From Sphingomonas sp. (GTDB lineage: Bacteria; Pseudomonadota; Alphaproteobacteria; Sphingomonadales; Sphingomonadaceae): DNA of 64,000 bases. Of the stretch, positions 17,286-61,665 are shown piece by piece. The translations under genes and the position numbers were made by a program. How positions within the stretch are numbered: position 1 is the stretch's first letter; each line of letters starts with the position of its first letter. The notes under the pieces were generated by a model that had not been told where the DNA came from, did not search any database, and worked only from the letters and a program-made list of their open reading frames with translations. The stretch lies in the NCBI RefSeq assembly GCF_017304635.1, contig NZ_JAFKMA010000003.1:375585-439584 (forward strand), in the 5' to 3' direction.

Positions 17286-17297
17286 GAGGTTCCCCAG

Positions 17298-18350: not shown

Positions 18351-18356
18351 GCGGCG

Positions 18357-19244: not shown

Positions 19245-20161
19245 AGGGCATCATCCTCGCCGGCGGTTCCGGCACGCGGCTGCACCCGGCGACGCTGGCG
19301 GTGAACAAGCAGTTGCTGCCGGTCTACGACAAGCCGATGATCTATTATCCGCTGTCGGTGCTGATGCTCGCCGACATCCGCGACATCCTCATCATCTCCA
19401 GCCCCGAATATCTCGCCAACTACCAGCGCCTGTTCGGCGACGGGTCGGCGATCGGGCTGGCGATCAGCTATGCCGAGCAGCCGCGACCGGAGGGGCTGGC
19501 GCAGGCGTTCACGATCGGGGCGGACTTCATCGGCGACGATCGCGTCGCGCTGGTGCTGGGCGACAACATCTTCTTCGGCGCCGGCCTGCCCGAACTGCTG
19601 GCGAGCGCGGTCGCGCGCGACCAGGGGGCGACCGTGTTCAGCTATCAGGTCGAGGATCCCGAACGCTACGGCGTGGTCGAGCTCGACGCCGACGGCCGCG
19701 CGATCAGCATCGAGGAAAAGCCGGCGGTGCCGAAGTCGAACTGCGCGGTGACGGGCCTGTATTTCTACGACAATCGCGTCGTCGACTATGCCCGCAACCT
19801 GACGCCGTCGGCGCGCGGCGAGCTGGAGATCACCGACCTCAACCGGCTCTACATGGCGGCGGGCGACCTGTTCGTCGAACAGATGGGCCGCGGCTATGCC
19901 TGGCTCGACACCGGCACGCACGACAGCCTGCTCGAGGCAAGCGAGTTCGTTCGCACACTGCAACATCGCCAAGGCATCCAGATCGCCTGTCTGGAGGAGA
20001 TCGCGTTCGAGCACGGTTTCATCGATGCCGACACCGCGACCGCGCTCGGCAAACGCTACGAGAAGACGGCGTACGGCCGCGCCATCCTGCGCGCGGTCGA
20101 GCGCGGCCCGCGCGAACGCCGCGTGCGCGGTCCCGACCGCCGCCGGGACGAGCGGGCGTGA
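19241..20161 (+). CDS. rfbA: Glucose-1-phosphate thymidylyltransferase
   Basis: A 306-residue nucleotidyltransferase making dTDP-glucose from dTTP and glucose-1-phosphate, the first step of the rhamnose pathway. [19 protein letters not shown] is the nucleotide-binding motif; [24 protein letters not shown] and [17 protein letters not shown] are typical of RfbA/RmlA. Start ATG at 19241 sits in the ATGA overlap with rfbD; the open frame upstream to 19190 is out-of-frame rfbD. The stop overlaps the GTG of the next glycosyltransferase (GTGA). The last 20 residues are unusually Arg-rich. Confidence 0.97.
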
Positions 20162-44405: not shown

Positions 44406-45464
44406 CTATTCGGTTTCCCTGATAGCTGTAGTTGAATTCCTGACTTCTACACGGGCAGGTACGACGATCGGTTGGCTACCATCGACCTGTCCGGCCTGGT
44501 CAGCGATAATCAGTTCAACCGCTTTCGCACTCACCTCCGCGATCGGTTGGACGACGGCGGTCAGGGGGGGGTGTGCGAAGCGGACGATCGGCGTGTCGTC
44601 GAAGCTGATGAGCGAGAGGTCGGCAGGCACCTCGATGCCGCGTTCGCGCGCCAGGGCGAGCGTCGCCAGCGTCATCTGATCGTTGCTGGCGATGATCGCG
44701 GTCGGCGGGTCGAGGGCGTCGAGCAAGGCCCGCGCCGCCGCCGTCCCCGACGCATAGCCGAAGTCCCCTTGCGCCAGCAGACCGTCGGTCGCCAGGCCTG
44801 CCGCCGCCATCGCGCCGCGCCAGCCATCGACGCGCCAGCCGCTCAGTTCGAAATCGTCGGGCCCGGCGATGAAGCCGATCCGTCGATGTCCCAGGCCGAC
44901 CAGATGCTCGGTCGCCAGCCGCGCGGCGCGTTCGTCATCCATTGTCAACGCAAAGCCGGGGCCCGGCTTGACCGAACCGATCCGCGCGAAGCTGATCCGA
45001 TGCTCTGCAAGCAAGTCGATGATGAGCGGATTTTCCGAATGCGGCGGGGTCAGGATCACGCCGTCGGGCTGAAGTGCGGCGATCGCGGCGAGCAGTTCGC
45101 GCTCGATATGGTCGCTATGCGTGTCGACCAGTTCGACGATCATGCGATAGCCGTGCCTGGCGCAGGTCAGCATGCCGCCGAGCAACATCTGATCGACCCA
45201 GTCGGTGCCTTCGCGCGATTGCCAGCCGGCGATCGTCCGCTCGCGGTCGTTGAGCGCGAGGATCAGGTAGGAGCGCGAGCCGCCCATCCGCTGCGCTGCG
45301 ATCGACGGCACGTAGCCGAGCTTGGCGATCGACGCCTGCACCCGCTCGATCATTTCCGGGCGGACATTGGGCTCCTTGTTGATGACGCGGCTGACGGTCT
45401 GCAGCGACACGCCCGCGTCCGCCGCGACATGCTTGATCGTGACCGATTGCCGGCGCCGCGCCAT
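44406..45464 (-). CDS. LacI family transcriptional regulator
   Basis: A 352-residue LacI/GalR repressor. Helix-turn-helix: VTIKHVAADAGVSLQTVSRVINKEPNVRPEMIERV (residues 8-42), with hinge IAKLGYVPSIAAQRMGG; the periplasmic-binding-protein-like effector domain follows (DGVILTPPHSEN, GFIAGPDDFELSGWRVDGWRGAM, AIIASNDQMTLATLALARERGIEVPADLSLISFDDTPIVRFAHPPLTAV). It is the last gene of the receptor/halogenase operon; ATG at 45464 shares one base with the halogenase TGA (TGATG). The perfect palindrome at 53512 in the receptor promoter is the probable operator, so it likely autoregulates the operon and also GH3/MFS. Effector sugar unknown. Confidence 0.93.
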   Translation of the reverse strand: MARRRQSVTIKHVAADAGVSLQTVSRVINKEPNVRPEMIERVQASIAKLGYVPSIAAQRMGGSRSYLILALNDRERTIAGWQSREGTDWVDQMLLGGMLTCARHGYRMIVELVDTHSDHIERELLAAIAALQPDGVILTPPHSENPLIIDLLAEHRISFARIGSVKPGPGFALTMDDERAARLATEHLVGLGHRRIGFIAGPDDFELSGWRVDGWRGAMAAAGLATDGLLAQGDFGYASGTAAARALLDALDPPTAIIASNDQMTLATLALARERGIEVPADLSLISFDDTPIVRFAHPPLTAVVQPIAEVSAKAVELIIADQAGQVDGSQPIVVPARVEVRNSTTAIRETE

Positions 45465-46975
45465 CAGCCCTGCGCCGCCGCGACCGGGCGCCGCGCGCCG
45501 CAATAATTGGCGACATAGGCGGCATGGTCGGGCAGGCCGGCGACCGTCCGGCTGACCGTGTCGCGCAGCATCGCCAGCAGCTTCGCCAGTTCGTCGTCGC
45601 GCAGTTTCTCCGCGATCGGATGATGCGATTGCGGCATGATCCCCTGCCCCAGCATCACCTGCACCCAGCTGTTTTCCGCGAACAGTTCCTCGTGACGGCG
45701 GAAGACGCGGCCGGTCTCGCGGAACAGTTCGATCTTCTGCGTCAGGCTGTCGGGGATCGGCATCGCGGCGCAATACCGCCAGAACGCGCTGTCGCGGCGG
45801 TCGGTCGCCTTGTAGTGCAGGATCAGGAAGTCGCGGATCTGCCGCATGTCCTCGTCCTGCTGGTCGTTAAACTCGGCGATATCGCGCGGCGACACGTCGC
45901 CCAGCGGCATCATCCGCAGCAGCCGCAGCACCGCGCGCTGGATCAGATGGATGCTGGTCGATTCGAGCGGTTCCATGAACCCGCCCGACAGCCCGATCGC
46001 GACGCAGTTGCGGTGCCATTGCCGCCGCCGCGCACCGGTCGTGAAGCGGATGACGTTCGGCTTGGTCAGAGCCTCGCCCTCGATATTGCCGAGCAGTCGG
46101 TCGAGCGCCGCATCCTGCGCGAGGTAACGACTGCACCACACCAAGCCGTTGCCGGTGCGATGCTGGAGCGGAATGCGCCATTGCCATCCTGAATCGTGCG
46201 CGATCGCGCGGGTATAGGGGACCGGCGGCCGGACATTCTCGGTCTGGAGCGCGATCGCGGAATCGCACGGCAGCCAGTGCGTCCAGTCGTCGAACCCGGC
46301 GTGGAGCGCGCCCTCGATCAGCAATGCGCGGAAGCCGGTGCAGTCGAGAAACAGGTCGCCCTCGATCCGCGTACCCGCCTCCAGCACCAACGCGGCGATA
46401 TTGCCGCTCTCGCCGTCGAGCTCGACCTGCGCGATCTTGCCTTCGACCCGGCGCGTGCCGTCGCCCTCGGCCATGGTGCGCAGCATCTTCGCGTAGGCCG
46501 TCGAATCGAGCTGATACGCATAATTCATGGCATCGTCGGGCAGGTGGGCGAACTTGCCCTGCAACGCGGCGACCAGTTCGAGGCAGTAATCGTCGTAGGG
46601 CTGGTCGTGGCCCTTGGTCAGGCCATAGAGCCAGAAATGCTGAAATCCCGCCGACCAGTGATCCTTGCCCGTCAGGCCGAACGAGTGGAAATAGCGGTCG
46701 CCGACATTCTTCCAATTGTCGAACAGGATGCCGAGCTTGAACGTCGCGTTGGTCGCCCGCATGAAATCGGCTTCGTTGATGCCGAGCAGCCGGTTGTAGG
46801 TAATCATCGGCGGGATGGTCGACTCCCCAACCCCGATCGTGCCGATGGCGTCGGATTCGACCAGCGTCACTTCAGCGATGCGGCCCATCGTCCGTGCGAT
46901 CGCCGCGGCCGCCATCCAGCCGGCGGTGCCGCCGCCCGCGATCACGATCCGGCGCGGCCGGGCCATCCCACTCAT
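45464..46975 (-). CDS. Flavin-dependent halogenase, tryptophan-halogenase family (copy 2)
   Basis: A 503-residue FADH2-dependent halogenase. FAD motif IAGGGTAGW (residues 12-20); GVGESTIPP; the catalytic Lys is Lys80 in NATFKLGILFDNW; WxWxIP motif present as GWQWRIPLQHR; the active-site Glu in GGFMEPLESTSIHL. These features point to a catalytically competent halogenase. Named for tryptophan, but relatives linked to TonB receptors act on free indoles or unknown substrates, so the substrate is not assigned. Start ATG at 46975 overlaps the cupin stop by 4 nt. It requires a flavin reductase, none of which is in the window. Confidence 0.92.
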   Translation of the reverse strand: MSGMARPRRIVIAGGGTAGWMAAAAIARTMGRIAEVTLVESDAIGTIGVGESTIPPMITYNRLLGINEADFMRATNATFKLGILFDNWKNVGDRYFHSFGLTGKDHWSAGFQHFWLYGLTKGHDQPYDDYCLELVAALQGKFAHLPDDAMNYAYQLDSTAYAKMLRTMAEGDGTRRVEGKIAQVELDGESGNIAALVLEAGTRIEGDLFLDCTGFRALLIEGALHAGFDDWTHWLPCDSAIALQTENVRPPVPYTRAIAHDSGWQWRIPLQHRTGNGLVWCSRYLAQDAALDRLLGNIEGEALTKPNVIRFTTGARRRQWHRNCVAIGLSGGFMEPLESTSIHLIQRAVLRLLRMMPLGDVSPRDIAEFNDQQDEDMRQIRDFLILHYKATDRRDSAFWRYCAAMPIPDSLTQKIELFRETGRVFRRHEELFAENSWVQVMLGQGIMPQSHHPIAEKLRDDELAKLLAMLRDTVSRTVAGLPDHAAYVANYCGARRPVAAAQG

Positions 46976-48006
46976 CGGCTGAGCTGCCGCAGGAGGAAGG
47001 CGCGGATCAGGCCGGCGGTCGTGGCGTCGAGCGGATCGAGGATGCTGCGTCCGCCCTCGGGAATGTGCGCGACCACATCGTCATCGTTGTCGAACACGTA
47101 ATAGTCGAACAGATCGCGCCAATACGCCTTCTGCGCCGACGGCAGGTCGCGCACGGCCATGATCGCGTGGTTGAGCGCATCCTGCGGACTGCCCAGCCAG
47201 CGCGGCGTCTCGCGCCACCAATAGTTCACCAGGACGTTGAACGGCGCCAGCCCCTCGACATGGTGCCACCACATCGACGGGATGTAGAGCGCGTCGCCGG
47301 CATCGAGTTCGGCGACCTGCGCGTGCGCCAGCGCCTCAGCGAAGCGGGGGAAACGATCGGAATCGGGCGCGTGGAAGTCGACCATGCTGACGGCGCGCCC
47401 GGCCGGAGTGTTGTCGATCGGGCCCAGATACAAGTTCCGGAACTGGTCGTGCGGGAACAATGTGAACCGCCGCAGCCCGACCGCGACGCAGGCGAGGTTG
47501 GACGGGATGTCGTTGTGCGCCGCGACCCGGGTCCGCGTGCCGATCCAGATGCTCTCGAGCAGCTGGCGGTCGCCGAGATCGAGCCGGTTCTCTTCGTGCA
47601 GGCCGGCGAAGAAACCCTTCACGTCGATCGAGGCGAGGTAGACGGGCGGCGCGTCGGGCTTGTGCTCGAACTGGTCGATCTGGCCGAAAATGTCGGCCAG
47701 TCCGGCGCGGATGGTGCGAAAGTTCATCGCCATCGCATCGTCGTAGAACAGCCGGCCGCCATCGGTGGTCGGCTGGCCGACCGATGCCGTGAACGGTACG
47801 CCGCGCGCCTTGCTCAGCAGATAGGCCCGTGCATCGCGGGTCGAGCGTTTCCCGGCCTGGACCAGTGGCCAGTCGGCGACCAGCCCGCGCACCACGAACG
47901 GCTCGGTCGCGCTGCGCAGGCGCGCGTCGAGCTCGGCGGCATCGGCCACCGTCACGTCCGGAATGACGGCCAGCGCGCCGAAGATGCCGGGATCCGCCTC
48001 AGCCAT
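46972..48006 (-). CDS. Cupin-like (JmjC/FIH type) Fe(II)/2-oxoglutarate oxygenase-like protein
   Basis: A 344-residue protein of the cupin-8/JmjC group. Fe(II) ligands by pattern: His164 and Asp166 in RVAAHNDIPSN and a distal His in MWWHHVEGLAPFNVLVNYWW (248-249). It therefore has the facial triad (HxD...H). The N-terminal PFVVRGLVADWPLVQAG is the typical start of cupin-8. Known relatives are hydroxylases or lysyl/asparaginyl oxygenases; here the target is unknown. It overlaps SapC by 8 nt at its start and the halogenase by 4 nt at its end. Confidence 0.88.
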   Translation of the reverse strand: MAEADPGIFGALAVIPDVTVADAAELDARLRSATEPFVVRGLVADWPLVQAGKRSTRDARAYLLSKARGVPFTASVGQPTTDGGRLFYDDAMAMNFRTIRAGLADIFGQIDQFEHKPDAPPVYLASIDVKGFFAGLHEENRLDLGDRQLLESIWIGTRTRVAAHNDIPSNLACVAVGLRRFTLFPHDQFRNLYLGPIDNTPAGRAVSMVDFHAPDSDRFPRFAEALAHAQVAELDAGDALYIPSMWWHHVEGLAPFNVLVNYWWRETPRWLGSPQDALNHAIMAVRDLPSAQKAYWRDLFDYYVFDNDDDVVAHIPEGGRSILDPLDATTAGLIRAFLLRQLSR

Positions 48007-48718
48007 GACCGACCCTGGCGTTCTTGCGCGCGATCAGTTCGGGAATGTTGGACAGCGAGGCGAGCGCCATGAACACCGGCAGCAGATAACCCGCTTCGTG
48101 CAATTCGCCGAGTGCGGCCGCATCGAGCCGCTGCAACCGGTCTTCGTCGATCGCATGATACCCGACGAGCCGGTTGGTCGACCGATCGGCCAGCGTGATC
48201 TCGAGCGTCAGCGGTTCGAGCAGGTCGTGGCGGGTCAGCGTGGCGAAGAAGTCGTCCAGCTCCTGCCAGCCGGCGTCGAGTTCGCCGAGCTGCCCGGTGA
48301 TCGCCTCCAGATAGGGCGACGGGCGGCCGAGTTCGTCGAACACGCGGATACCCTCGCCGCCGGTTGCGATGCGCGGGCTGTCCAGGTCGAGATGGACCTG
48401 CTTGTCGCCGCCTTCCCGCGCCGGATGGCCGACCAGGAACGGCTGGATCTGCATCGCGAGCGGACGGTAGCGCGCGTCCCAGCGATCCCCATCGAGAAAC
48501 AGATTCTCCCCCGCCTCGAACCCGAACAGCGCCAGCGGCTGGAAACGATCGCGCTCCGGGGTCAGGCGGAACAGGATCGGATAGTCGTTCTGCACCCGGC
48601 GGAACTCGCTCGGCACGACGATGCACGACATTACCGCGTCGCCTTGTGCGGCACCGTGCGCGGGCGTGATGCGCAGGTCGCGATGATCGTCGGTCGAGAG
48701 AATGGCGTGGTTGGCCAT
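47999..48718 (-). CDS. SapC family protein
   Basis: A 239-residue SapC-like protein (FRRVQNDYPILFRLTPERDRFQPLALFGFEAGENLFLDGDRWDARYRPLAMQIQPFLVG...; VHLDLDSPRIATGGEGIRVFDELGRPSPYL). No signal peptide or membrane segment, so cytoplasmic. The name comes from the Campylobacter fetus SapC, an S-layer related protein, but in sphingomonads and caulobacters the gene is usually found as here, next to halogenase and cupin genes behind a TonB receptor. Function there is not known. ATG at 48718 shares a base with the first halogenase stop (TGATG). Confidence 0.88.
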   Translation of the reverse strand: MANHAILSTDDHRDLRITPAHGAAQGDAVMSCIVVPSEFRRVQNDYPILFRLTPERDRFQPLALFGFEAGENLFLDGDRWDARYRPLAMQIQPFLVGHPAREGGDKQVHLDLDSPRIATGGEGIRVFDELGRPSPYLEAITGQLGELDAGWQELDDFFATLTRHDLLEPLTLEITLADRSTNRLVGYHAIDEDRLQRLDAAALGELHEAGYLLPVFMALASLSNIPELIARKNARVGHG

Positions 48719-50235
48719 CAGCGATGCTGCTCCTTGGGAATCGGTGGCTGCGCGGCGCGGCACGCGTCGAGATAGGCGCGGATCGGCGGCAGCGAAGCGG
48801 CGAGCGCGTGCCCGCGTTGCGCGACCGCGGCGAGCGACGGCGGAGTGCCGACGGCGATCGGCCCGGCGGCGGGGAGCGGCGCGCCCATGCCGTAGAGGAC
48901 ATATTGGTAGCTCGCGGCGGGGAACACTTCGTCGACTATCGGCAGATCGGCGCGGCTCGGCGGACGATGGCGCCACAACGTCAGCAGGTCGGCGAGGCGC
49001 GGCGGCACCGAGGCGGCGGCACGATGGTCGCGCCAATAGGGTTCCTCGCGCCGGCTGAGGACGTAATGCAGCTTCAGGAATTCGACGATCCGGTCCCAGC
49101 GATAGCGGAACAACGTATTGAAGCGGTCCGCAATCAAGCCGATCGTCGCGCGCGTCGGCCAATCGTCGAGTAACGCGTCGAGCGACAGCTCGATCGTGAC
49201 GATCGCCGACGCTTCGAGCGGTTCGAGAAACCCCGCCGACAGGCCGACCGCCAGGCAATTGCCGCGCCAGAACCGCTCGCGATGGCCGGAGCGGAAGGCC
49301 AACCGACGCGCGGCGGGGGCCTCCGCGACCCCGAGGTATCTCGCCAGCGTCGCCGCCGCCTCGTCGTCGCTCATGTGTGCCGAGGAATAGACGCAGCCGA
49401 CGCCACGGCGGGCGGGCAGGCCGATGTTCCAGATCCAGCCCGCTGCGTGCGCGGTCGCATCGGTCTGCGCCGTGATCGCGCTGTCCGGGGCGACCGGCAC
49501 CTGCACCGCCAGCGCGCGGTCGTTGAACAGGACATCGCCGCGATCGACGAACGGGATGTCGCCGACCAGCAGCGCGGCATGGCCGGTGCAATCGAGGAAC
49601 AGGTCGCCCGCGATCGCGCCGTGCGCGCGCGTGCGTACGGCGGCGACATCGCCGCTCGTCACCCGCTCCACCTCCGTCACGTGATCGCGCACATGGCGGA
49701 CGCCGAGCCGCGCGGTCGCATGGTGCCGCAACAGCGCCGCCAGCTTGCCGGAGTCGAGATGATAGCCGTAGTTCAGCGCCCCCGCATAATCGGGCATCGC
49801 CCGCTGGCGTGGCGCGAGCCCGAGGCGCGCGACGCGCGGCTGCGGCGACACCGCATCGGCAAAGGTGCCGCCCTCTGCCTGCCATGCGGCCAGCAGAGCG
49901 CGGCCGTCGCCGTCGACCGGCGGCGTGAAGGGGTGGAAATAGGCATCGTCGGTCTCACCGGTCGCCCAGCCGATAAACCGCGAGCCATGCTTGAACGAGG
50001 CGTCGCAGGCGGCGAGGAACTCCGCCTCGCCGATGCCGATCCGCTCCAGCGTCCCGCGCATCGTCGGCCACGTGCCCTCGCCGACGCCGATCGTCTCGAC
50101 CTCCGGCGATTCCACCAGCGTCACGGTGAGCGGCGGCGTCGCGTCCGGCCGCACCGCGGCGGCGATCCGACACGCCGCGAGCCAGCCGGCGGTGCCGCCG
50201 CCGACGATCACGACGTGAGAGATGGCCGTGTCCAC
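48718..50235 (-). CDS. Flavin-dependent halogenase-like protein, tryptophan-halogenase family (copy 1)
   Basis: A 505-residue FAD-dependent halogenase-like protein. FAD motif [18 protein letters not shown], and the Lys in the catalytic position (Lys82, [12 protein letters not shown]). The WxWxIP motif is altered: [13 protein letters not shown] has Gly in place of Pro, and the acid motif reads [13 protein letters not shown] where copy 2 has LEST. It may bind a different substrate or use a different halide, or not halogenate. First cistron of the halogenase module; starts at GTG 50235, and a hairpin (50306-50337) separates it from the receptor gene. Not a duplicate of copy 2 at the sequence level. 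Confidence 0.88.
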
Positions 50236-50305
50236 GCAGGCTGGTCCTGTCCTACCGCCACCCGACCGGCAGCGCCGTCACTTGTGCCGCCGCCATCGAC
50301 AAAAG

Positions 50306-50337
50306 GCCATCCCCGCGGGGAGGAATGCGGGGATGGC
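50306..50337 (-). terminator. Terminator-like hairpin between the TonB receptor and the first halogenase
   Basis: On the minus strand: GCCATCCCCGC, loop of 10 nt, GCGGGGATGGC, then CTTTTG. A perfect 11-bp stem directly after the receptor stop (50346) with a short T stretch. It probably reduces read-through into the halogenase genes and so sets a higher receptor-to-enzyme ratio, or marks an RNA-processing site. Confidence 0.55.
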
Positions 50338-50345
50338 TAGCCGGT

Positions 50346-53300
50346 TCAGAACGAGAAGCGGGCACCGAGCGAGTAGCGCGCGGCCTGCTTCTGGACGAAG
50401 TTGATGGCCTGGTCGGAGCGCAGATGCCCGCTGCGATCCTCCCCGGTCACGTTGATGCCTTCGAAGAAGACACCGATGTTCTTGGTGATCGCGTAGCTCG
50501 CGCTGACGTCGAGCTGTCCATACGGATCGACGTATTGCGGGTCGGTCGAGCCGCCGGCGAAATAGCCCGCGCGCCAGTTGTACGCCGCGCGCGCCTGGAT
50601 CCCGTTCTTGTCGTAGAACAGGACCGCGTTGGCACTGTTCGAGATGCCGGCGACCGCGAACTGCGCGATCGTATGCGGGATCGTGTTGTTGAACTTCTGG
50701 TTGGTGTTCACGATCGTGTAGTTGAGGATGACGCCGAAGCCGGTGTGCCAGAAATTGTGCTGGATGCCGAATTCGAAGCCGTCGATCGTCGCCGTCTGGT
50801 TGCTGTTGTACGGCGTGCTGATGACGAAATTGACCAGCGGATCACCCGGCCCAGCGAGCAACTGACCCAGCGGCCCGACATATTGCGGGTAGTTGGTCTG
50901 ATAATATTGCTGGATCTGGAAGAACGTGGCGTTCGGGCCCAGCGCGTTCAACGCCGCCTGATACCGCGGTCCGTTCGTCGTCACGCCGTTGACGGTCGTG
51001 GTCGGCGCCGCGACGTTCGGAATGGTCGTGTTGAACTGCGTCTGGCCGATATAGTTCGACACGTGCTTGTTGAAGTAGGCGACCGAGAGGAAGCTCTCGT
51101 TGCCGTAATACCATTCGGCCGACAGATCGATGTTCTTCGACTTGTACGGCACGAGACCCGGATTGCCGACCGACCCGCCGCCGCCGCCGATGCGGAACAG
51201 CGTACTCAGGTTGCGGCCACCTTGCAGGCTGCCGTAATCGGCCCGCGTGATCGTGTGGCTGTACGACGCGCGCAGCTTCACGCCGTTGAGCGGCTCGATA
51301 TCGAAATCGACCGCGGGCAGCCAGTTGTCGTAATTGCCCTTGAACGACGTGAAGCCCGAACCAGAGAACAGCACGTTGAACTCGTTCTGCGAGTTCTGCT
51401 GCCCGCCGACCGGTGTCGGCACCAGCGCGCTCGCATTCACTTGGGTGTTCTCGTAGCGGATGCCCGCGATCAGGTGCCCCGGTCGCGAGAACAGTTCGAA
51501 CTTGCCGTTGAACTGGAAATAGGGCGCCAGCGTGCGCTCGTGAATGCGCGAGTCCGTGGTGTAGGGCAGCAGGCAGGTGAGCGTGCCGCCGCAAGTCTTG
51601 TAGGCAGCGTCGGTCAGCTTCAGCGCGGTCGGCAGGTCGAAGGTGTAGAACTGGCTGACGATGTTCGAGTTGTTGGCGCCGCTGATCCCGGAGAATTTGT
51701 CGGGAATGCTGACGAGGTGGAAGATGCTGTCGGGCAGGAGCGCGGCCGCCGCGGCGCGCTGCGCGATGGAGCTGCCGCCGGCGCCGCCCCAAGTGTCGTT
51801 CTGCAGGACGCTATAGGCCGAGCGGACCTGATTGTCGGTATATTCGAAGCCCCAGTCCAGGCTGTCCATGAAGCCGTGGCCGTTGTCGTAATGCCCCTTC
51901 AGCGAGATCTGGTTGATCCGGTCCTTGAAGTACGAATTGCGGAAGGCGTTGCCGGTGGGCACGATTAGCGACGCGTTGAGCGGATCGATCCCGGGATACA
52001 TGTTGAACGAGATGACCGGCAGCTTGTTCTGGAAATTGATCGTCTGGCTCTGCACGCCGAAGATGGCGGTGCCGAACGAGTTGCTGTTGCCGTACGGGCT
52101 GTCGGGCTTCGACTCCGCGGTCGAGTGATGCGCGTCCAGCGTGATGGTGACGCCGCCCGGTCCCTTCCACACCAGGTTGCCGCCGAGCGACTTGTTCTCG
52201 CTGCGATAGGCGGTTTCCGACGCGGAATAGGCGAGATCCTTGTACGCCGAGTTGACGTTCTCCGCATTCTGCGCCGCGGTCAGGGTCGGATCGTAGGCGG
52301 GCAGGCCGAAGCGTTCGGTGTAGAAGTTCGCGCCCGCGACCGGCCCGTTGGTCCACGAACTCGACGTGTCGCCATGATTGTACCAGATGCCGACGCTGTC
52401 GTCGCGGATGTGCACCGTCTCGCGCGAATAGGTGTAGTCGATCGTGCCGGTCAGATTGTCGGTCGGGCGGAATTGCAGCACCGCCTGGCCGTTGATGCGT
52501 TCACGCCGGCCATCGACAATGTCGTAGCCGCCGTTCTGCGGCACCTGATAGACGTCGTTCGGCCCGGGACGGTTCTGGATATTGGCGTAGCGCGAGTCGC
52601 CGGGCATCGCGAGCGAGCCCCAATTGTTTTCGGACCCGAGATACCCCTCGCGGAACCCGATATTGGCGGCGTTCTGGCTGAACCGGCGCAACTGGTAGCT
52701 GCCGTCGATCAGGATGCCGATCCGGTCGTCGGCGAAGGTGTCGGAAATGATCCCCGACACTTCCGGCGTGACGTCGACATGGTTGTTCTGCGACGTGTCG
52801 TAATCGCCCCGCGCGCTGATCGACCCGCGCAGGCCCATCTTGTCGAACGGCCGGGGCGTACGGATGTTGATGGTCGAGCCGATGCCGCCGGTCGGGATCG
52901 TCGCGCGACCCGATTTGTACACTTCCAGCGCGGCGACGCCTTCCGACGCCAGGTTGGAGAAGTCGAACGACCGCGAGACGGGCGCGCTGTTGCCGTCGCC
53001 GATGATCGACGTCGGCATCTGGCGGCCGTTCAAGAGGACGAGATTGTATTCGGGCCCGAAGCCGCGAACGGTGACGAACTGGCCCTCGCCGTTGGAGCGG
53101 TCGATCGACACGCCGGTGATGCGCTGGAGCGACTCGGCGAGGTTGGTGTCGGGAAACTTGCCGATCTCCTCTGCGGAGATCGCATCGACGACGCCCTGCG
53201 CATCGCGCTTGAGCTCGAGCGACTTGCGAAGGCTGGCGCGGATGCCGGTGACGACGATGTCGGCGTTCGCGTCGCCGCCTGCCTGGCTCTGGTCGGGCGT

Positions 53301-53411
53301 GGGAGCGGGCGGCGCATCCTGCGCCACTGCGACTCGCGGTATGGCCGCCAGACCGATTGCCGAAACGCCCAACAACAGCCGCGACAGCGTGCCGCTCGAG
53401 ATGCCCCGCAT
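50346..53411 (-). CDS. TonB-dependent receptor
   Basis: A 1021-residue outer-membrane active transporter. Signal peptide (LLLGVSAIGLAAIPRVAVAQ), TonB box DIVVTGIR (residues about 50-57), plug domain (SLELKRDAQGVVDAISAEEIGKFPDTNLAESLQRITGVSI...VRGFGPEYNLVLLNGRQMPTS), and a 22-strand barrel ending YSLGARFSF with terminal Phe. This is the large TonB subfamily typical of Xanthomonadales/Sphingomonadales glycan loci. No N-terminal signalling (STN) domain is seen. Gene starts at ATG 53411 with GGGGAG upstream; two palindromes (53455-53468, 53512-53527) lie just before it. Substrate probably an oligosaccharide, judging from the adjacent GH3 and MFS genes. Confidence 0.94.
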   Translation of the reverse strand: MRGISSGTLSRLLLGVSAIGLAAIPRVAVAQDAPPAPTPDQSQAGGDANADIVVTGIRASLRKSLELKRDAQGVVDAISAEEIGKFPDTNLAESLQRITGVSIDRSNGEGQFVTVRGFGPEYNLVLLNGRQMPTSIIGDGNSAPVSRSFDFSNLASEGVAALEVYKSGRATIPTGGIGSTINIRTPRPFDKMGLRGSISARGDYDTSQNNHVDVTPEVSGIISDTFADDRIGILIDGSYQLRRFSQNAANIGFREGYLGSENNWGSLAMPGDSRYANIQNRPGPNDVYQVPQNGGYDIVDGRRERINGQAVLQFRPTDNLTGTIDYTYSRETVHIRDDSVGIWYNHGDTSSSWTNGPVAGANFYTERFGLPAYDPTLTAAQNAENVNSAYKDLAYSASETAYRSENKSLGGNLVWKGPGGVTITLDAHHSTAESKPDSPYGNSNSFGTAIFGVQSQTINFQNKLPVISFNMYPGIDPLNASLIVPTGNAFRNSYFKDRINQISLKGHYDNGHGFMDSLDWGFEYTDNQVRSAYSVLQNDTWGGAGGSSIAQRAAAAALLPDSIFHLVSIPDKFSGISGANNSNIVSQFYTFDLPTALKLTDAAYKTCGGTLTCLLPYTTDSRIHERTLAPYFQFNGKFELFSRPGHLIAGIRYENTQVNASALVPTPVGGQQNSQNEFNVLFSGSGFTSFKGNYDNWLPAVDFDIEPLNGVKLRASYSHTITRADYGSLQGGRNLSTLFRIGGGGGSVGNPGLVPYKSKNIDLSAEWYYGNESFLSVAYFNKHVSNYIGQTQFNTTIPNVAAPTTTVNGVTTNGPRYQAALNALGPNATFFQIQQYYQTNYPQYVGPLGQLLAGPGDPLVNFVISTPYNSNQTATIDGFEFGIQHNFWHTGFGVILNYTIVNTNQKFNNTIPHTIAQFAVAGISNSANAVLFYDKNGIQARAAYNWRAGYFAGGSTDPQYVDPYGQLDVSASYAITKNIGVFFEGINVTGEDRSGHLRSDQAINFVQKQAARYSLGARFSF

Positions 53412-53454: not shown

Positions 53455-53468
53455 TGATAACGTTCACA
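53455..53468. promoter_or_regulatory. Second, imperfect LacI-type operator-like site
   Basis: TGATAACGTTCACA, centred on AACGTT like the perfect site at 53512-53527. It lies 44 nt before the receptor ATG, where bound repressor would block its transcription. Imperfect dyad symmetry, so a weaker site. Confidence 0.5.
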
Positions 53469-53511: not shown

Positions 53512-53527
53512 TTGAGAACGTTCTCAA
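53512..53527. promoter_or_regulatory. Perfect 16-bp palindrome, probable LacI-family operator
   Basis: TTGAGAACGTTCTCAA is perfectly self-complementary, with the central CG of LacI-family operators (pattern TGANAACGTTNTCA). It is about 100 nt from both the receptor ATG and the GH3 ATG, in their shared divergent promoter region. The LacI gene at the end of the receptor operon is the likely binder. Confidence 0.75.
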
Positions 53528-53626: not shown

Positions 53627-55879
53627 ATGTCCAGGAAAATCGCCGCCGCGCTGATCGGCACGTCGCTCGTCGCCGCGGCCAGCGCGCAGACCCATCGATC
53701 CGCGAAACCCGCCGTCGCGACCGCCCGGCATGACGCCCGCGCCCGCGCCATGGCGATCGTCGCGCGCATGACGCTCGATGAAAAGATCGCGCTGCTCCAC
53801 GGCCTGTTCCCGCCGCTTGCGGCCGGCAAGACGACCAACGAACTGGTCCCGTCAGCCGGGCACATCGACGGCATCCCGCGGCTCGGTATTCCGTTGATCC
53901 GCGAAAGCGACGCGTCGCTCGGCGTCGCCAATCAGGTCGAGCAGCGCAAGGGCGACGTGGCGACCGCCCTCCCCTCCAGCCTCGCGACGGCCGCGAGCTT
54001 CGATCCGGCGATCGCGCGCGCCGGCGGCACGATGATCGGCGCCGAAGCACGCGCCAAACGGTTCAGCGTCCTGCTCGCCGGTGGCGTCAACCTGACGCGC
54101 GATCCGTGGAACGGGCGCAACTTCGAATATCTGGGGGAGGATCCGCTGCTCGCCGGCATCATGGCGGGCGCGCATATCGCGGGCGTGCAGTCGAACCATA
54201 TCGTCTCGACGATCAAACATTACGCGATCAACGCGCAGGAGACCGGCCGCACGATCGCCGACGCGCGGATCGGCGAGGCGGCGCTGCGGATGAGCGACCT
54301 GCTCGCGTTCGAGATCGCGATCGAGCGCGGTCATCCCGGGTCGGTCATGTGCGCATACAACAAGCTAAACGGCGACTATGCCTGCGAGAACGAGTGGCTG
54401 CTGAACCGCGTGCTCAAGCGCGACTGGGGCTATCGCGGCTGGGTGATGAGCGACTGGGGCGCCGTCCATTCGACGGTGAAAGCGGCCAATGCCGGGCTCG
54501 ACCAGCAATCGGGCCAGGAACTCGACAAGCAGATCTATTTCGGCGCCCCGCTCAAGGCGGCGGTCGAGGCAGGTCAGGTCCCGATGGCGCGGATCGACGA
54601 CATGGTCGCGCGCTACCTGACCGGCCTGATCGAAACCGGGGTGTACGATACGCCGGTGCCGACCACGCTCGGCCCCATTCCCTACGCCGCGCATGCCGAT
54701 GTCGCGCAGCGCGCCGCCGAGGCCGGGATCGTGCTGCTCAAAAATGACGGTCGTCTGCTGCCGCTGGCGCGGACCGCGAAGCGCATCGTGCTGATCGGCG
54801 GCCATGCCGATGTCGGCGTGCTGTCGGGCGGCGGATCGAGCCAGGTCCGCTCGGTCGGCGGCGCGCCGGTCGAGATCCCGCTGACGTCGGGTGCGGCGAT
54901 GTCGTTCGCGCGCGTGACGTACCACGCCTCCTCCCCGCTCAAGGCGATCCGCGCCGCGATGCCGGGCGCCGACGTGACCTATGTCGACGGTCGCGACGTG
55001 GCGGCAGCCGCCGCGGCGGCGCGGTCCGCCGATGTCGCGATCGTGTTCGCGACGCAATGGACGACCGAGGCGGAGGATGTGCCCGACCTCAAGCTCCCCG
55101 ACGATCAGGACGCGCTGATCGCCGCCGTCGCCGCCGCGCAGCCGCGCACCCTCGCGGTGATGGAGACGGGCGGGCCGGTGCTGATGCCGTGGATCGACCG
55201 CGTGCCCGCCGTGCTGCAGGCGTGGTATCCGGGCCAGCGCGGCGGCGAGGCGATCGCGGCGATCCTGAGCGGTGCGGTCAATCCGTCGGGTCACCTGCCG
55301 ATCACCTTCCCGCGTTCCGCCGACCAGCCGCCGCGCGTCGCGCCGGTCGGGCTCGACACGCTGACCGGGCTCGCCGCGCAAGCCGCCGCCGATCCCGCCA
55401 AGGCCGGTCAATACCAGTTGCAGAGCTTCCCGATCGATTATGTCGAGGGCGCCAATGTCGGCTATCGCTGGTACGAGCAGCGTCGCCTGACGCCGTTGTT
55501 CGCGTTCGGTCACGGGCTCAGCTACACCAGCTTCGCCTATCGCCGCCCGACGGTCACCGGCGGCGCCAGGCTGACGGTGTCGTTCGACGTCACCAACACC
55601 GGCACGGTCGCGGGCGTCGACATCCCGCAGGTCTATGTCGCGCGCGACGGGTCGAGCGATCCGATGCGCCTAGTCGCGTTCCAACGCGTCACGCTCAAGC
55701 CCGGCGAGACGTGCCGCATCACGCTGACCGCCGAGCCGCGCGTCGTCGCCGATTACGACCCGGCGCTGCCGGGCTGGCGGATTGCGGCCGGTCGCTATCG
55801 CGTCGCGGTGGCGCACGACGCGGCCGACCGGTCGATGGTGGTGACGACCACACTCGGGGGAGCCCGGATGAAACCCTGA
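53627..55879 (+). CDS. Glycoside hydrolase family 3 beta-glucosidase-like enzyme
   Basis: A 750-residue exported GH3 enzyme. Signal peptide (KIAAALIGTSLVAAASAQ) then GH3 N-terminal TIM barrel with PRLGIPLIRESDASLGVA, FEYLGEDPLLAG and KHYAINAQE; the nucleophile is Asp276 in GWVMSDWGAVHS. The GH3 C-terminal domain (GIVLLKNDGRLLPL...VAIVFATQWTTEAEDVPDLKLP, PWIDRVPAVLQAWYPGQRGG) and a Fn3-like C-terminal domain follow. Start ATG at 53627 has GAAGGA; an ATG 33 nt upstream in frame lacks the signal-peptide start. Hydrolyses beta-linked gluco- or xylo-oligosaccharides in the periplasm, presumably those brought in by the TonB receptor. The LacI palindrome lies upstream. Confidence 0.93.
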   Translation: MSRKIAAALIGTSLVAAASAQTHRSAKPAVATARHDARARAMAIVARMTLDEKIALLHGLFPPLAAGKTTNELVPSAGHIDGIPRLGIPLIRESDASLGVANQVEQRKGDVATALPSSLATAASFDPAIARAGGTMIGAEARAKRFSVLLAGGVNLTRDPWNGRNFEYLGEDPLLAGIMAGAHIAGVQSNHIVSTIKHYAINAQETGRTIADARIGEAALRMSDLLAFEIAIERGHPGSVMCAYNKLNGDYACENEWLLNRVLKRDWGYRGWVMSDWGAVHSTVKAANAGLDQQSGQELDKQIYFGAPLKAAVEAGQVPMARIDDMVARYLTGLIETGVYDTPVPTTLGPIPYAAHADVAQRAAEAGIVLLKNDGRLLPLARTAKRIVLIGGHADVGVLSGGGSSQVRSVGGAPVEIPLTSGAAMSFARVTYHASSPLKAIRAAMPGADVTYVDGRDVAAAAAAARSADVAIVFATQWTTEAEDVPDLKLPDDQDALIAAVAAAQPRTLAVMETGGPVLMPWIDRVPAVLQAWYPGQRGGEAIAAILSGAVNPSGHLPITFPRSADQPPRVAPVGLDTLTGLAAQAAADPAKAGQYQLQSFPIDYVEGANVGYRWYEQRRLTPLFAFGHGLSYTSFAYRRPTVTGGARLTVSFDVTNTGTVAGVDIPQVYVARDGSSDPMRLVAFQRVTLKPGETCRITLTAEPRVVADYDPALPGWRIAAGRYRVAVAHDAADRSMVVTTTLGGARMKP

Positions 55880-57170: not shown

Positions 57171-58922
57171 CTAGGGATAATGCCGCAGCGTCTGGCGGAT
57201 CGCGCCCGCGCGCGCCGCGTCGCCGGCGTCGTTGACCAGATGGGCGATCGTTCCCTTGCCGCCGCCCAGCGAGATTGTCGTGATGTCGGTGAAGCGCACA
57301 CCCGGCCGTCGCGGCGCGACGATCGCACTCGGCACGACGATCGCGGGGTCGGCCGTGAAATTGGCGTAGATGCCGAGCCCGGTCGCCTGATGCTCCCGCA
57401 CATGGTCGGCAACGCGATAGGCCGTCCAGTCGTGCGGCGACCCAGCGCGATAGGCGGCCTGGCTCGGCGGGTCGTAGGGCAACTCGTTCTGGAAGAAATA
57501 GGTACGTCCGCGCTCGCCGTTCCATGCCACGTTGTCGCGCCGGAAATGCTCGACGAACAGGCCGTACATCGTGACGTCGTGGCCATTGACGACCAGCCCG
57601 CGATCGGCGGTGCTTTCGTCCCAGCCGACATGGACCCGGACGTGCGCGCGGTCGCCATGATCGGCGCGCCAGATCCACAAATGGTCGCCGATGACTCCGC
57701 GGCTGTTGATCTCCAGGCACGTGTCCGCCCTGCCGACGGCGGCACCGCCGACGCGGAAGAACACGTCCGCAAGCAAGGTCGGATCGGCGCGGTGGTCGCG
57801 TGACGATCCGCGCGGACCGATTTCCATCAGCACCGGGGACGACTGCGCCCCGGCATCGATCAACAGGCCGGCGATGCTGACGCCGGGCACATCGGCGACG
57901 GTGAGCGCCGGGGCGCCACCGTCCGCGCGCAACGTCGCCAGACCGAGGCCCAGTACGACGGTGCCGCCCCGCGTCACGCGGATCGGCTCCGTCAGCGGAT
58001 AGATCCCCGGCGTCACCAGCAGATGCAGCCCCCGCCTCAGCGCGGCATTGATCCGGCGCGCGGTCATGCCGGGGCGAGCGATGAAGAACCGCTCCAGCGG
58101 GAGCGTCGTCCCACTCGCCGTGCCGGTCCAGCCGGGTCCGCGAGCGTCACGGCGCAACGACGGGACGAACACGCCCCATGCGCCACGCGCGCCAACCGTC
58201 AGGAACGGCTTTTCGCGGATCACCCGGACATCGGACACGGTCGTGATCGGCGGCTCCGGAAAGGTCGTCGGCGGCGCACCCTCAACGCCCAGGAACATCA
58301 TGTTCCAATTCGCGCCGTGCCAGCCGCCGATGGTGCTGGCGCGCGTGAACCATTGCTGCTGACTGCCCGACCGTATCGTCCCGCCGATCCGGCAATCGGC
58401 GATGAAGCCACCGCTCGACCATCCCCCGTCGTCTAGCGCCAGGTTTCCGGCCAGATGGATGCGCCGATAGGGCGCCGCCTGCGACACCGCCCAGCGATCG
58501 GCGCCGTCGGGCGGGCGAACGGTCAGATTCTCGGCCCCGCGCCAGAAATTGACCAGCGCCATGCCGCCGTTCCAGTCGGCTTCGGCATGGACATGGCCGG
58601 CGATATCGACCTCTCCCGGCACCCGGCCCAGCCCCGCGACCTGCGTGTAGAAACCGACATTGACGTCGCACGCATATCGCCCGGGCTTGAACAGGATCGC
58701 GTAGCGCTCGTCGCCGAACTCGGCCCGCTCCATCCGACCGAAAATCGCGTCGATGCGACGCTGGATGTCATCGGGTCGCATCGACGCATCGACGATCAGC
58801 ACGTTCGGCCCTAGGTCCGGCTGAGGCGAACCGGGCGACGCAACGGAACGCCCGACATGCCCCCCGGCCGCGAACAGCGAAAGCGCAACGACGGTAGACC
58901 TTCGATCAATATCTTGATGCAT
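57171..58922 (-). CDS. Secreted right-handed beta-helix protein (unrecognised enzyme)
   Basis: A 583-residue exported protein. ATG at 58922 gives a short N-region followed by a plausible signal peptide (STVVALSLFAAGGHVGRSVA). The body is a long repetitive beta-helix (pectin-lyase-like) pattern: YAILFKPGRYACDVNVGFYTQVAGLGRVPGEVDIAGHVHAEADW, RWAVSQAAPYRRIHLAGNLAL, GMTARRINAALRRGLHLLVTPGIYPLTEPIRVTRGG, DHLWIWRADHGDRAHVRVHVGWDES. It resembles uncharacterised proteins from streptomycetes and other soil bacteria annotated loosely as coagulation factor 5/8 or cyclase-like. Probably a polysaccharide lyase or hydrolase, but catalytic residues are not identified. The frame upstream to 59048 is not needed. 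Confidence 0.72.
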   Translation of the reverse strand: MHQDIDRRSTVVALSLFAAGGHVGRSVASPGSPQPDLGPNVLIVDASMRPDDIQRRIDAIFGRMERAEFGDERYAILFKPGRYACDVNVGFYTQVAGLGRVPGEVDIAGHVHAEADWNGGMALVNFWRGAENLTVRPPDGADRWAVSQAAPYRRIHLAGNLALDDGGWSSGGFIADCRIGGTIRSGSQQQWFTRASTIGGWHGANWNMMFLGVEGAPPTTFPEPPITTVSDVRVIREKPFLTVGARGAWGVFVPSLRRDARGPGWTGTASGTTLPLERFFIARPGMTARRINAALRRGLHLLVTPGIYPLTEPIRVTRGGTVVLGLGLATLRADGGAPALTVADVPGVSIAGLLIDAGAQSSPVLMEIGPRGSSRDHRADPTLLADVFFRVGGAAVGRADTCLEINSRGVIGDHLWIWRADHGDRAHVRVHVGWDESTADRGLVVNGHDVTMYGLFVEHFRRDNVAWNGERGRTYFFQNELPYDPPSQAAYRAGSPHDWTAYRVADHVREHQATGLGIYANFTADPAIVVPSAIVAPRRPGVRFTDITTISLGGGKGTIAHLVNDAGDAARAGAIRQTLRHYP

Positions 58923-59124: not shown

Positions 59125-61665
59125 ATGTCGTCAGGTCTCGCCATCCGCGCTGCCGTTTCCGTAAGCGCGCTCGCCGTCGCGCTGTTTTCGGTTCCCGCAA
59201 TGGCGCAGGACGCCGCGCCGGCGACGACCCCGCCGGCAGACAAGGCGGCCGATCCCGATACGATCGTCATCACGGCCAAGTCGACCCGATCGGCGACCGC
59301 CATCCCGCAGTCCGAAATTCAGAAGATCCTGCCCGGTGTATCCCCGCTCAAGGCGATCGAGACATTGCCGGGCGTGCTTTATATCACGGCCGATCCGTGG
59401 GGGAATAACGAGCAGAACGCGCAGATCTTTATCCACGGGTTCAATTTCCAGCAGCTCGGCTACACGATGGACGGGATCCCGCTGGGCGACCAGAATTACG
59501 GCAATTACAACGGCCTGTCGCCGCAACGCGCGGTCATTTCGGAAAATGTCGGTCGCGTCGTCGTGACGACGGGGGCCGGCGACCTCGCCACGCCGTCGAG
59601 CAGCAATCTGGGCGGCACGGTCGAGACCTATTCGGCCGAGCCGCTCCATCGCCTGGGGCTACAGGCCAATGCGACGGTCGGCAGCTACAGCACGACTCGC
59701 GGCTACCTCCGCCTCGACATCGGCGACAGCACCAATGCGGGCTACGTCTCCGGCATGCGCCAGCGCGCCCGGGCCTGGGACTTCAACGGTTATCAGCAGG
59801 GCTGGCAGGCCAACGCCAAGTTCGTCCATGACGACCATATCGGCAAGCTGACCTTGTTCCTCGACTATTCGGACAAGCAGGAACCGAACGAGGACGCCAC
59901 CGTGTTCCGCGTGCCCGCGACCAATGCGGTGCAAGCCTATCTGCCCTATACCCGGCCATTCTATTATGCCGACCTGACGGGCGTCCGCGGCTATATGGAC
60001 GCGTTCGGCAATACGCCGGCGGCGGTCGGCAGCAATTATCGCAACTATTATTCGGATGCGCAGCGGACCGACTGGCTTGGCTATGGGCGCTACGACGCGC
60101 ATCTGGCGAAGAACGCGACGTGGTCGACGACGGGTTACTACCATCACAATGACGGCGTCGGGGTCGTCGCCGGGCCGCTCGGCCAGTCGATCACGGTCAT
60201 CCAGGCCTATCTGGATCCCAATTACGCGACCGACTGCCATTTCGGCGGCAACAGCAATGGCGCGTTCGCGTCGAGTTGCACGACGATGACGAGCACACAG
60301 GCACAGACGCTGGGCAGCCAGTTGGTCGCCGCGACCGGCGGTTCCGGCCTAGTGACGCGCACGACCGAATACCGGATCGACCGGGCGGGCGTGATCTCCA
60401 GCCTGGATGTAACGCTGGGCGATCACCAGATCGAGCTCGGCGGCTGGTTCGAACGCAATTCTGCGACGCAGTGGCGGCGCTGGTACGCGGTGCCGCTGGC
60501 GAGCCCGGCGATCAGCACGCCCTATATCCGCCCGCGCAACGTCGAAGCACCGCTGTTCACGCAATACCAGGGCGAAGCGCGCGTCAATACGCTTCAGCTC
60601 CACGTGCAGGACCATTGGCAAGCGACCGACCGCCTGTCGATCGAGGCCGGGGTCAAGACGAGCGCGCAATGGGCCAACGGCTATTATCTCGTGCAGCCGG
60701 TGGCGGGCTCGCTCTCCGGCCTGACCGGCGGCTTACCCAGCGGCCGGATCAGGACGCTCAACTGGTTCCTGCCCGCGGTCGGCGCGACCTATGACGTCAA
60801 CGGGCACGAGCAACTGTATTTCAACGTGCAGAAGAACCTTCACCAGTTCATGACCTATCTGGGCGGCGGGTCGATCTCGCCATGGTTCACCGGCAGCCAG
60901 GCCGCCTTCAACGCCGTCGCGCAGCAGGGTCGCCCCGAAACCAGCTGGACCTATGATGCGGGCGTGCGCACGCGGCGGAGCTTTGCCGGCGCGCTCCGCG
61001 GGTTCGAGGCGCAGGTGAATTATTACCACGTCGTCTTCAGCGACCGGCAACTCGGCATCTCGACCAACCCGGGCGGCATCGCGGGCGGCGCGATCACCGG
61101 CGGCACCTCGATCCTCGTCAATGCCGGCGCGGTGCATACCGACGGCGTCGACGCGGCCTTCACGTGGCGGTTCGGCCGAACTTTCTCGCTCTACAATGCG
61201 ACGTCGTACAACCTGTCGACCTACAAGAGCGACTATACCTCGACCGCGAGCGGGATCGGCGCCGCAACCGGGACGTGCATCGGCGGCTTCGCGGTCGTGT
61301 CGGGGGTCGTGCCGACCTGCGGCAAGCAACTGCCCGGTGTGCCCAAGTTGATGAACAAGACGGTCGCCACGCTCGACGTCGGCCCGTTCGAGGCGCAGCT
61401 GGTCGGAGATTTCGTCGGCAAGCGGTTCGCGACCTACACCAACGACACCAGCGTGCCGGACTATTTCCTGACGTCGCTCCGCCTTGCATTCCAGGTGCCG
61501 ACCGACGTGCTGCACCTGCGCAAAGCCGAGATCAGCCTCAACGTCACCAACCTGACCGACGAGAAGGGGTGGTCGACGGTGTCGATCGGCTCGGCGAACA
61601 ACAGCTATTCGGCCTATCCGATCCCGCCGCGGCAATTCTTCGTCACGGTATCGGCAGGGTTCTGA
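59125..61665 (+). CDS. TonB-dependent receptor (second)
   Basis: An 846-residue outer-membrane transporter. Signal peptide (VSVSALAVALFSVPAMAQ), TonB box DTIVITA (residues about 46-52), plug domain (PGVSPLKAIETLPGVLYITADPWGNNEQNAQIFIHGFNFQQLGYTMDGIPLGDQNYGNYNGLSPQRAVISENVGRVVVTTGAGDLATPSSSNLGGTV), and a barrel ending PPRQFFVTVSAGF. Distinct in sequence from the first receptor and shorter, similar to siderophore/small-ligand type receptors as well as glycan ones. GGGGAAAAAAC precedes the ATG. Divergent from the beta-helix gene, so these two may be co-regulated by the palindrome at 59091. Substrate not known. Confidence 0.93.
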   Translation: MSSGLAIRAAVSVSALAVALFSVPAMAQDAAPATTPPADKAADPDTIVITAKSTRSATAIPQSEIQKILPGVSPLKAIETLPGVLYITADPWGNNEQNAQIFIHGFNFQQLGYTMDGIPLGDQNYGNYNGLSPQRAVISENVGRVVVTTGAGDLATPSSSNLGGTVETYSAEPLHRLGLQANATVGSYSTTRGYLRLDIGDSTNAGYVSGMRQRARAWDFNGYQQGWQANAKFVHDDHIGKLTLFLDYSDKQEPNEDATVFRVPATNAVQAYLPYTRPFYYADLTGVRGYMDAFGNTPAAVGSNYRNYYSDAQRTDWLGYGRYDAHLAKNATWSTTGYYHHNDGVGVVAGPLGQSITVIQAYLDPNYATDCHFGGNSNGAFASSCTTMTSTQAQTLGSQLVAATGGSGLVTRTTEYRIDRAGVISSLDVTLGDHQIELGGWFERNSATQWRRWYAVPLASPAISTPYIRPRNVEAPLFTQYQGEARVNTLQLHVQDHWQATDRLSIEAGVKTSAQWANGYYLVQPVAGSLSGLTGGLPSGRIRTLNWFLPAVGATYDVNGHEQLYFNVQKNLHQFMTYLGGGSISPWFTGSQAAFNAVAQQGRPETSWTYDAGVRTRRSFAGALRGFEAQVNYYHVVFSDRQLGISTNPGGIAGGAITGGTSILVNAGAVHTDGVDAAFTWRFGRTFSLYNATSYNLSTYKSDYTSTASGIGAATGTCIGGFAVVSGVVPTCGKQLPGVPKLMNKTVATLDVGPFEAQLVGDFVGKRFATYTNDTSVPDYFLTSLRLAFQVPTDVLHLRKAEISLNVTNLTDEKGWSTVSIGSANNSYSAYPIPPRQFFVTVSAGF

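Follow-up and report, generated by a model that had tools for sequence, protein, structure and literature searches.

This analysis concerns a run of six genes on the minus strand of a 64,000-nucleotide stretch of Sphingomonas sp. DNA (assembly GCF_017304635.1, contig NZ_JAFKMA010000003.1, positions 375,585 to 439,584), hereafter the window, in which a TonB-dependent receptor gene is followed by genes for a halogenase-type flavoenzyme (HAL-I), a SapC family protein, a Cupin_8/JmjC-like protein, a flavin-dependent halogenase (HAL-II), and a LacI-family regulator (Table 1). These six genes in this order had been listed in the initial annotation, and the coordinates together with the Pfam matches confirm it; both HAL-I and HAL-II are above the PF04820 cut-off of 21 bits. 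Overlaps of 1-8 nt had also been claimed, and this is true for the enzyme genes and the LacI gene, with 1 nt for HAL-I/SapC, 8 nt for SapC/cupin, 4 nt for cupin/HAL-II, and 1 nt for HAL-II/LacI as calculated from the coordinates, while the receptor stands apart, its end being separated from the start of HAL-I by a gap of 110 nt. That the genes form a tight unit linked to the receptor is supported by these overlaps and by the conserved neighborhood described below. With the receptor, a GH3 glycosidase, a major facilitator superfamily (MFS) transporter, and the LacI regulator, the window locus has the gene content of a CUT locus (carbohydrate utilization with a TonB receptor).

Table 1. Genes and sites at the receptor locus, in window coordinates
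Feature	Position	Strand	Basis or remark
TonB-dependent receptor, 1021 aa	50346..53411	-	Pfam PF00593/PF07715; TIGR01782 (TonB-Xanth-Caul), NCBIfam 572 bits vs cut-off 310
HAL-I, halogenase-type flavoenzyme, GTG start	48718..50235	-	PF04820, 374 bits; WIWNIG replaces WxWxIP
SapC family protein, 239 aa	47999..48718	-	PF07277, 212 bits vs cut-off 28.9
Cupin_8/JmjC-like protein	46972..48006	-	PF13621 Cupin_8, 214 bits; nearest solved relative FIH (asparaginyl hydroxylase)
HAL-II, flavin-dependent halogenase, Xcc4156/BrvH type	45464..46975	-	PF04820, 617 bits; WQWRIP
LacI-family regulator, 352 aa	44406..45464	-	PF00356, PF13377
W541 codon (LQNDTWGGAGG), proposed modification site	51789..51791	-	conserved column in receptor alignment
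Second LacI-type operator (predicted), TGATAACGTTCACA, 1 mismatch	53455..53468		between receptor and GH3
LacI-type operator (predicted), TGAGAACGTTCTCA, perfect palindrome, 0 mismatches	53513..53526		between receptor and GH3
GH3 glycosidase, divergent from receptor	53627..55879	+	family search
MFS transporter, also matches MFS/sugar transport PF13347	55969..57162	+	family search

When 147 genomes of the order were scanned, with gene presence at the loci counted by six-frame scan, SapC was present in 113. In 28 of the 62 SapC loci that were examined (the window and L017-L077, hand-picked from the matches listed, with extra copies preferred) SapC was in one run with a receptor, and all 28 of these also had a same-strand halogenase and 25 had a cupin; the other 34 had no receptor, halogenase or cupin in the stretch retrieved. 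In a second sample, the 80 loci with the best SapC matches among named genomes, which give no measure of breadth because they are the closest relatives, 79 had a same-strand receptor upstream of the module, the exception (L136) being a contig end, and all 80 had the cupin, 79 had at least one halogenase, and in 72 a halogenase came directly before SapC. Breadth was examined by a phylum-wide halogenase search of 219 genomes with 7 candidates scored per genome. Outside the order, 40 loci from 18 genomes, strong among the matches listed (298 bits or more), were examined and a receptor was found within 2.5 kb of the halogenase in 34 of them. Conservation of gene order in relatives was the initial annotation's own test, and it is supported by these three samples. 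Judged by gene order and sequence, the module is a real, conserved unit, and no account of a receptor-halogenase-SapC-cupin unit was listed in the searches made of an open-access library. Stand-alone SapC genes are also frequent in the order (e.g. L017 9156-9926, L058-L067, and L069-L077), and in the three that were examined (L061, L071, and L072) SapC adjoins genes which by eye are FAD-linked oxidase and N-formylglutamate amidohydrolase-like genes. Hits to PF04820, SapC, and Cupin_8, irrespective of linkage, are present in the control genome of Caulobacter vibrioides. One record titled Arthrobacter (L120, QDFQ01000002.1) carries a Sphingomonas-type module and is probably mislabelled or contaminated.

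The genome from which the window comes has nine halogenases that form four clusters, each adjoining one of about 32 receptors, and as sequence no more than 2.5 kb from a receptor makes up about 8% of the genome, rough arithmetic puts the probability of finding all four there by chance at about 4e-5. The window cluster has a GH3 gene, cluster L014 with four halogenases and two cupins has a GH10 gene nearby, cluster L015 has two alpha-amylase genes (a GH13 locus), and cluster L016 has GH32 and GH36 genes. It had been proposed in the initial annotation that the enzymes modify a compound linked to the cargo of the receptor. An explanation of this kind would be that the halogenases and the cupin act on a small aromatic compound imported through the receptor, such as indole or an aglycone from glycosides, which agrees with the GH3 gene adjoining the operon and with the halogenation of free indole or its derivatives in vitro by BrvH and Xcc4156, two halogenases of the HAL-II type, as given in excerpts of the published work (PMC5945002, PMC7336383). 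However, because the same enzyme family accompanies GH3, GH10, GH13, and GH32/GH36 receptor loci in one genome, a single aromatic cargo is unlikely and the cargo-linked compound is not supported, and among the operon genes there is no further enzyme for an aromatic compound; we regard the small-aromatic explanation as improbable. With such varied sugar enzymes beside the halogenase-linked receptors, the element in common is the receptor and not the cargo. The best supported reading of the sequence comparisons, one that we hold tentatively and below even confidence, is that this is a locus of the CUT type in which the receptor comes with modifying enzymes of its own, the receptor protein itself being the putative substrate. 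Of the options that the initial annotation had offered, an indole- or phenol-type compound or a peptide, the peptide fits best, and it would be the receptor polypeptide.

A candidate site in the receptor comes from an alignment of 151 receptors, left from 182 after similar ones were removed: 85 SapC-linked, 13 linked to a halogenase only, and 53 unlinked with neither within 2.5 kb. At the column of tryptophan 541 of the window receptor (W541), tryptophan (Trp) is present in 94% of the SapC-linked, 85% of the halogenase-only, and 4% of the unlinked receptors. The contrast at this column, calculated as the smaller linked frequency minus the unlinked frequency, is 0.81 and that of the next best among the 12 other columns above 0.4 is 0.52. 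Among 36 receptors that lie outside the order and had no part in finding W541, Trp was present in 12 of 16 that were SapC-linked and in 4 of 20 that were otherwise linked. When a receptor tree was made with 166 rows, including 36 from outside the order and with the SapC-linked rows thinned again, all members of the window's 71-member clade, all 12 members of a multi-halogenase clade, and L210 had Trp, and a maltose-type clade and two smaller SapC-linked clades were without Trp at this column. L210, which has a halogenase, forms a sister pair with L230, which has no Trp and no halogenase in the stretch retrieved. In the AlphaFold2 model of the receptor, with a mean pLDDT of 79, W541 follows strand 515-538, which itself comes after a short turn (510-514), and because this preceding turn is short, the long loop from residue 539, with W541 at its start, is read as extracellular. 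This topology is taken from strand order and turn lengths in the model and not from a solved structure, and residues 540-542 are one of four segments with pLDDT under 50.

The linked clades without Trp at this column were then searched for a site of their own. For this the receptor tree served to group 58 linked and 44/47 unlinked receptors, and each clade was aligned alone; lone or long-branch rows (e.g. L016, L241, L242, L172, and L236) were left out, and among the unlinked rows L225_3349 lies 0.5 kb from a cupin gene. A column with Trp in at least 80% of rows followed by a small residue in at least 80% (a Trp-small column) was present in all but one of the five linked clades, with Trp in 19/19, 13/13, 15/16 (at two columns), and 6/6 rows, and six diverse unlinked clades, each of 5-10 rows, had no such column. 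This split persists at other thresholds, and Tyr-small and Phe-small columns give no such split. The Trp-small site lies in different loops among the linked clades and the small residue after Trp is kept.

The Trp-Gly loop could simply bind sugar, which counts against the receptor as a substrate. If the conserved Trp-Gly were an ordinary sugar-stacking residue, then the enzymes would serve some other common uptake step, for instance on another protein or in protection of the pathway. The linked receptors do sit in carbohydrate loci, they are richer in Trp (12.7 and 11.2 per 1000 residues in the linked groups vs 9.0 in the unlinked), and a receptor of Allosphingosinicella vermicomposti (L093) keeps Trp although no halogenase could be found in that genome, which makes it a natural test case for dependence on the halogenase. 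On the other hand, unlinked receptors with a GH3 gene nearby (L206 twice, L222, and L237), GH3 being the sole sugar enzyme looked for, have no Trp in the W541 column, and in the linked clades the small residue accompanies Trp even when the loop differs. We consider sugar stacking alone an improbable explanation, to the same degree as that of a small aromatic cargo.

Several other points weigh against the receptor being modified. All the support is comparative and no modified receptor protein has been observed. The Trp-small motif was picked with the data already in view, and in so variable a loop the alignment program may pull Trp residues together. The independent-pairs test on the tree was underpowered, with two to three pairs changing in the same way, none in the opposite way, and a median p of 0.25. 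Conserved Trp columns of any kind were somewhat more common in the linked clades (2, 5, 7, 4, and 2) than in the unlinked clades (1, 0, 0, 4, 3, and 1), and when a related unlinked trio, C7, which has two Trp-small columns, is counted the split becomes 4/5 linked vs 1/7 unlinked. The fifth linked clade (L184, L226, L257, and L261) has no Trp-small column and no Trp site was named for the receptor L246_11105. L093 keeps receptor, SapC, cupin, and Trp with no PF04820 match in a genome of 2.5 Mb whose completeness is not stated. The unlinked receptors L242 and L221 carry Trp and both genomes have halogenases elsewhere, that of L221 about 12 kb off; likewise, an unlinked maltose-type receptor (L227) keeps Trp-Gly and has a same-strand halogenase 14 kb away. 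The presence of HAL-I changes nine times on the receptor tree, and among the 25 receptor residues that differ most with it there is no aromatic one and no good match to HAL-I. Finally, 6 of the 40 halogenase loci outside the order (L250, L262, L276, L278, L281, and L282) yielded no receptor in the stretch retrieved, also when the threshold was loosened.

In a tree of 179 halogenases there are two deep clades, that of HAL-I with 75 rows and that of HAL-II with 104 rows. HAL-I members have mostly WxWDIG/A and 56 of the 75 sit between receptor and SapC, and HAL-II members have mostly WQWRIP and 56 of the 104 come after the cupin. The Pro position of the WxWxIP motif is Pro in 105 of the 179, Gly in 50, and Ala in 17. 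The motif is present in window HAL-II and absent from window HAL-I, Gly or Ala being usual in the HAL-I clade, and because of this HAL-I is classed as a PF04820 relative and not as a typical tryptophan halogenase. The catalytic residues of PrnA are K79 and E346 according to an excerpt of PMC5945002, and at the corresponding columns 174 of the 179 have Lys and 175 have Glu, with six exception sequences; these columns were located by motif and not by alignment of PrnA. Both residues are present in window HAL-I and HAL-II, and although HAL-I is without the Pro, the loss of halogenase activity that the initial annotation had given as grounds for abandoning its proposal is not indicated by the sequences. 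Multi-halogenase arrays hold one degenerate member (L014 10666-12159, L225 about 11772, L213 about 10103, and L243 about 7410) in which the catalytic Lys is replaced by Arg or Ser and, in two of the four, Glu is also replaced by Gly; these are on long branches where the alignment is less sure, and such a member is probably a retained inactive partner.

The nearest solved structures to HAL-II are Xcc4156 (6y1w, E 3e-203), then 9luq and BrvH (6frl), and those to HAL-I are 9ltb and 2pyx. Another explanation is that the enzymes hydroxylate or otherwise oxidize Trp of the receptor or of another exported protein without halogenation, in the manner of QhpG and perhaps making a crosslink or a redox-active site. 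The lost Pro of HAL-I fits this, as do weak matches to the QhpG NCBIfam equivalog (34.2 bits for HAL-I and 24.3 bits for HAL-II, both under the cut-off of 240), QhpG being a halogenase-resembling flavoenzyme that dihydroxylates Trp in a protein before export (excerpt of PMC7876137). The near invariance of the catalytic Lys and Glu does not favor it, nor does the fact that the closest relative of HAL-II, Xcc4156, is described as a halogenase in the part of PMC7336383 cited here, and we give oxidation without halogenation slightly less credence than either the small aromatic or sugar stacking. In QhpG there is nevertheless a precedent for a flavoenzyme acting on a protein Trp ahead of export, with the difference that the target of QhpG is a subunit of an enzyme, in which a quinone cofactor is made. 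HAL-I and HAL-II start straight at the FAD motif with no signal peptide by eye, so their action would be cytoplasmic, on the receptor precursor.

The cupin has known protein hydroxylases, FIH (E 4e-19) and JMJD5, as its nearest solved relatives. The alignment with FIH spans residues 154-274 and includes the shared motifs HxD, LFPxDQFxxLY, and WWHH, and the columns of the HxD...H iron triad are invariant in all 123 Cupin_8 sequences. The differences are that the solved relatives are eukaryotic, that the window cupin is bacterial, and that its first 150 residues do not align with FIH.

The family of the third protein, PF07277, is named after SapC of Campylobacter fetus, which is linked to an exported surface-layer protein; no halogenase or receptor is known to be associated with that SapC. 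The AlphaFold2 model of window SapC has a pLDDT of 93.5 and gave no fold match in the PDB at E<=0.001. Forty plasmid records with SapC were found, and in five of the eight loci examined SapC adjoins or is at most two genes from a giant gene whose product is presumably an exported surface protein, export being judged from annotation. In L284 and L289 a giant filamentous hemagglutinin gene comes first and SapC begins 46 nt beyond it, and in L285 SapC is divergent from a giant LEPR-XLL gene. In the other two SapC follows at a distance of one or two genes, after a giant autotransporter-type gene in L286 and after a giant LEPR-XLL gene with an HlyD-type gene in L290. The plasmid L287 has a receptor-halogenase-SapC run with galactosidases, and near SapC in L283 and L288 there was no giant surface-protein gene or receptor module. 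These sequence neighborhoods suggest a general role of SapC with exported surface proteins, and in the window module the surface protein would be the receptor.

The operators predicted by the initial annotation ahead of the receptor are supported, as there are two candidate sites between the receptor and GH3. With up to two mismatches allowed the pattern has three matches in the whole window, the third being far off at 37528, against 0.6 expected, and a count of three was attained in 2 of 100 shuffles. A site with at most one mismatch is present upstream of 36 of 123 SapC-linked receptors vs none of 123 when each was shuffled once in a simple way. A scan for the sigma-70 consensus found two matches vs 1.8 expected, which is chance level. 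A mechanism in keeping with the receptor as substrate would be that a sugar releases LacI and the operon is expressed, and that HAL-II, perhaps with HAL-I, halogenates or otherwise oxidizes the indole of a Trp that precedes a small residue, W541 in the window. This would take place on the receptor precursor in the cytoplasm, before export, with SapC holding or presenting the unfolded outer-membrane protein to the enzymes and the FIH-like cupin hydroxylating the receptor too. The modified Trp would end in an extracellular loop where it may modulate the capture of ligands or make the receptor more or less resistant to oxidation or phage.

Compared with known systems, the window locus resembles CUT loci such as the sux locus in having a receptor, a sugar enzyme, an inner-membrane transporter, and a LacI-type regulator (excerpt of PMC1790865), and it differs in having four extra genes after the receptor; the words halogenase, SapC, and cupin are absent from the main text of PMC1790865. 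HAL-II resembles BrvH and Xcc4156 in structure searches and in the WxWxIP, Lys, and Glu residues, and brvH too has a second halogenase gene upstream in the excerpt of PMC5945002. From excerpts of PMC5945002 and PMC7336383, these two enzymes act on indole or its derivatives and not on free Trp, have open active sites, and have been suggested to act on a peptide or a larger substrate, and their native substrates are stated to be unknown. The excerpts describe no receptor operon for them, whereas a native substrate is proposed here. Flavin-dependent halogenation of Trp within a peptide is done by MibH and SrpI, halogenases of ribosomally synthesized and post-translationally modified peptides (excerpt of PMC12615548), with the difference that the substrate proposed here is a 1021-aa membrane receptor. 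According to the same excerpt MibH requires macrocyclization and proline hydroxylation, and such a need for prior hydroxylation would fit the pairing of cupin and halogenase.

A wider proposal, on which we are a little more reserved than on the window locus itself, is that many Proteobacteria halogenate and hydroxylate their own TonB sugar receptors at a conserved extracellular Trp-Gly-type site by means of operon-encoded flavin halogenases, an FIH-like hydroxylase, and a SapC adaptor. Receptor modification would then be what the orphan BrvH/Xcc4156 halogenases do natively, and outer-membrane proteins would have a modification of a new kind; the receptor as a substrate could explain what this puzzling family is for. 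Since the operon, taken with the receptor alignment, narrows the choice to one protein and one residue, the question of the BrvH/Xcc4156 substrate becomes a mass-spectrometry experiment. If the proposal is true, bacterial outer-membrane proteins would be halogenated by enzymes as a matter of routine, which may have a bearing on nutrient capture, on phage entry, and on tools for site-specific protein halogenation.

Elsewhere, a Sphingomonas 'tryptophan halogenase' (RS06730) was hit by one transposon insertion in a colony-morphology screen (excerpt of PMC11340318). In the window, the region 12835-41758 resembles, by eye, a gene cluster for exopolysaccharide, in which there are export genes and, at 16719-20161, dTDP-rhamnose genes. 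Beyond the MFS transporter gene there are two long genes, at 57171-58802 and 59200-61665, with no NCBIfam match at E<=0.001, and the start of the product of the second resembles a TonB receptor by eye.

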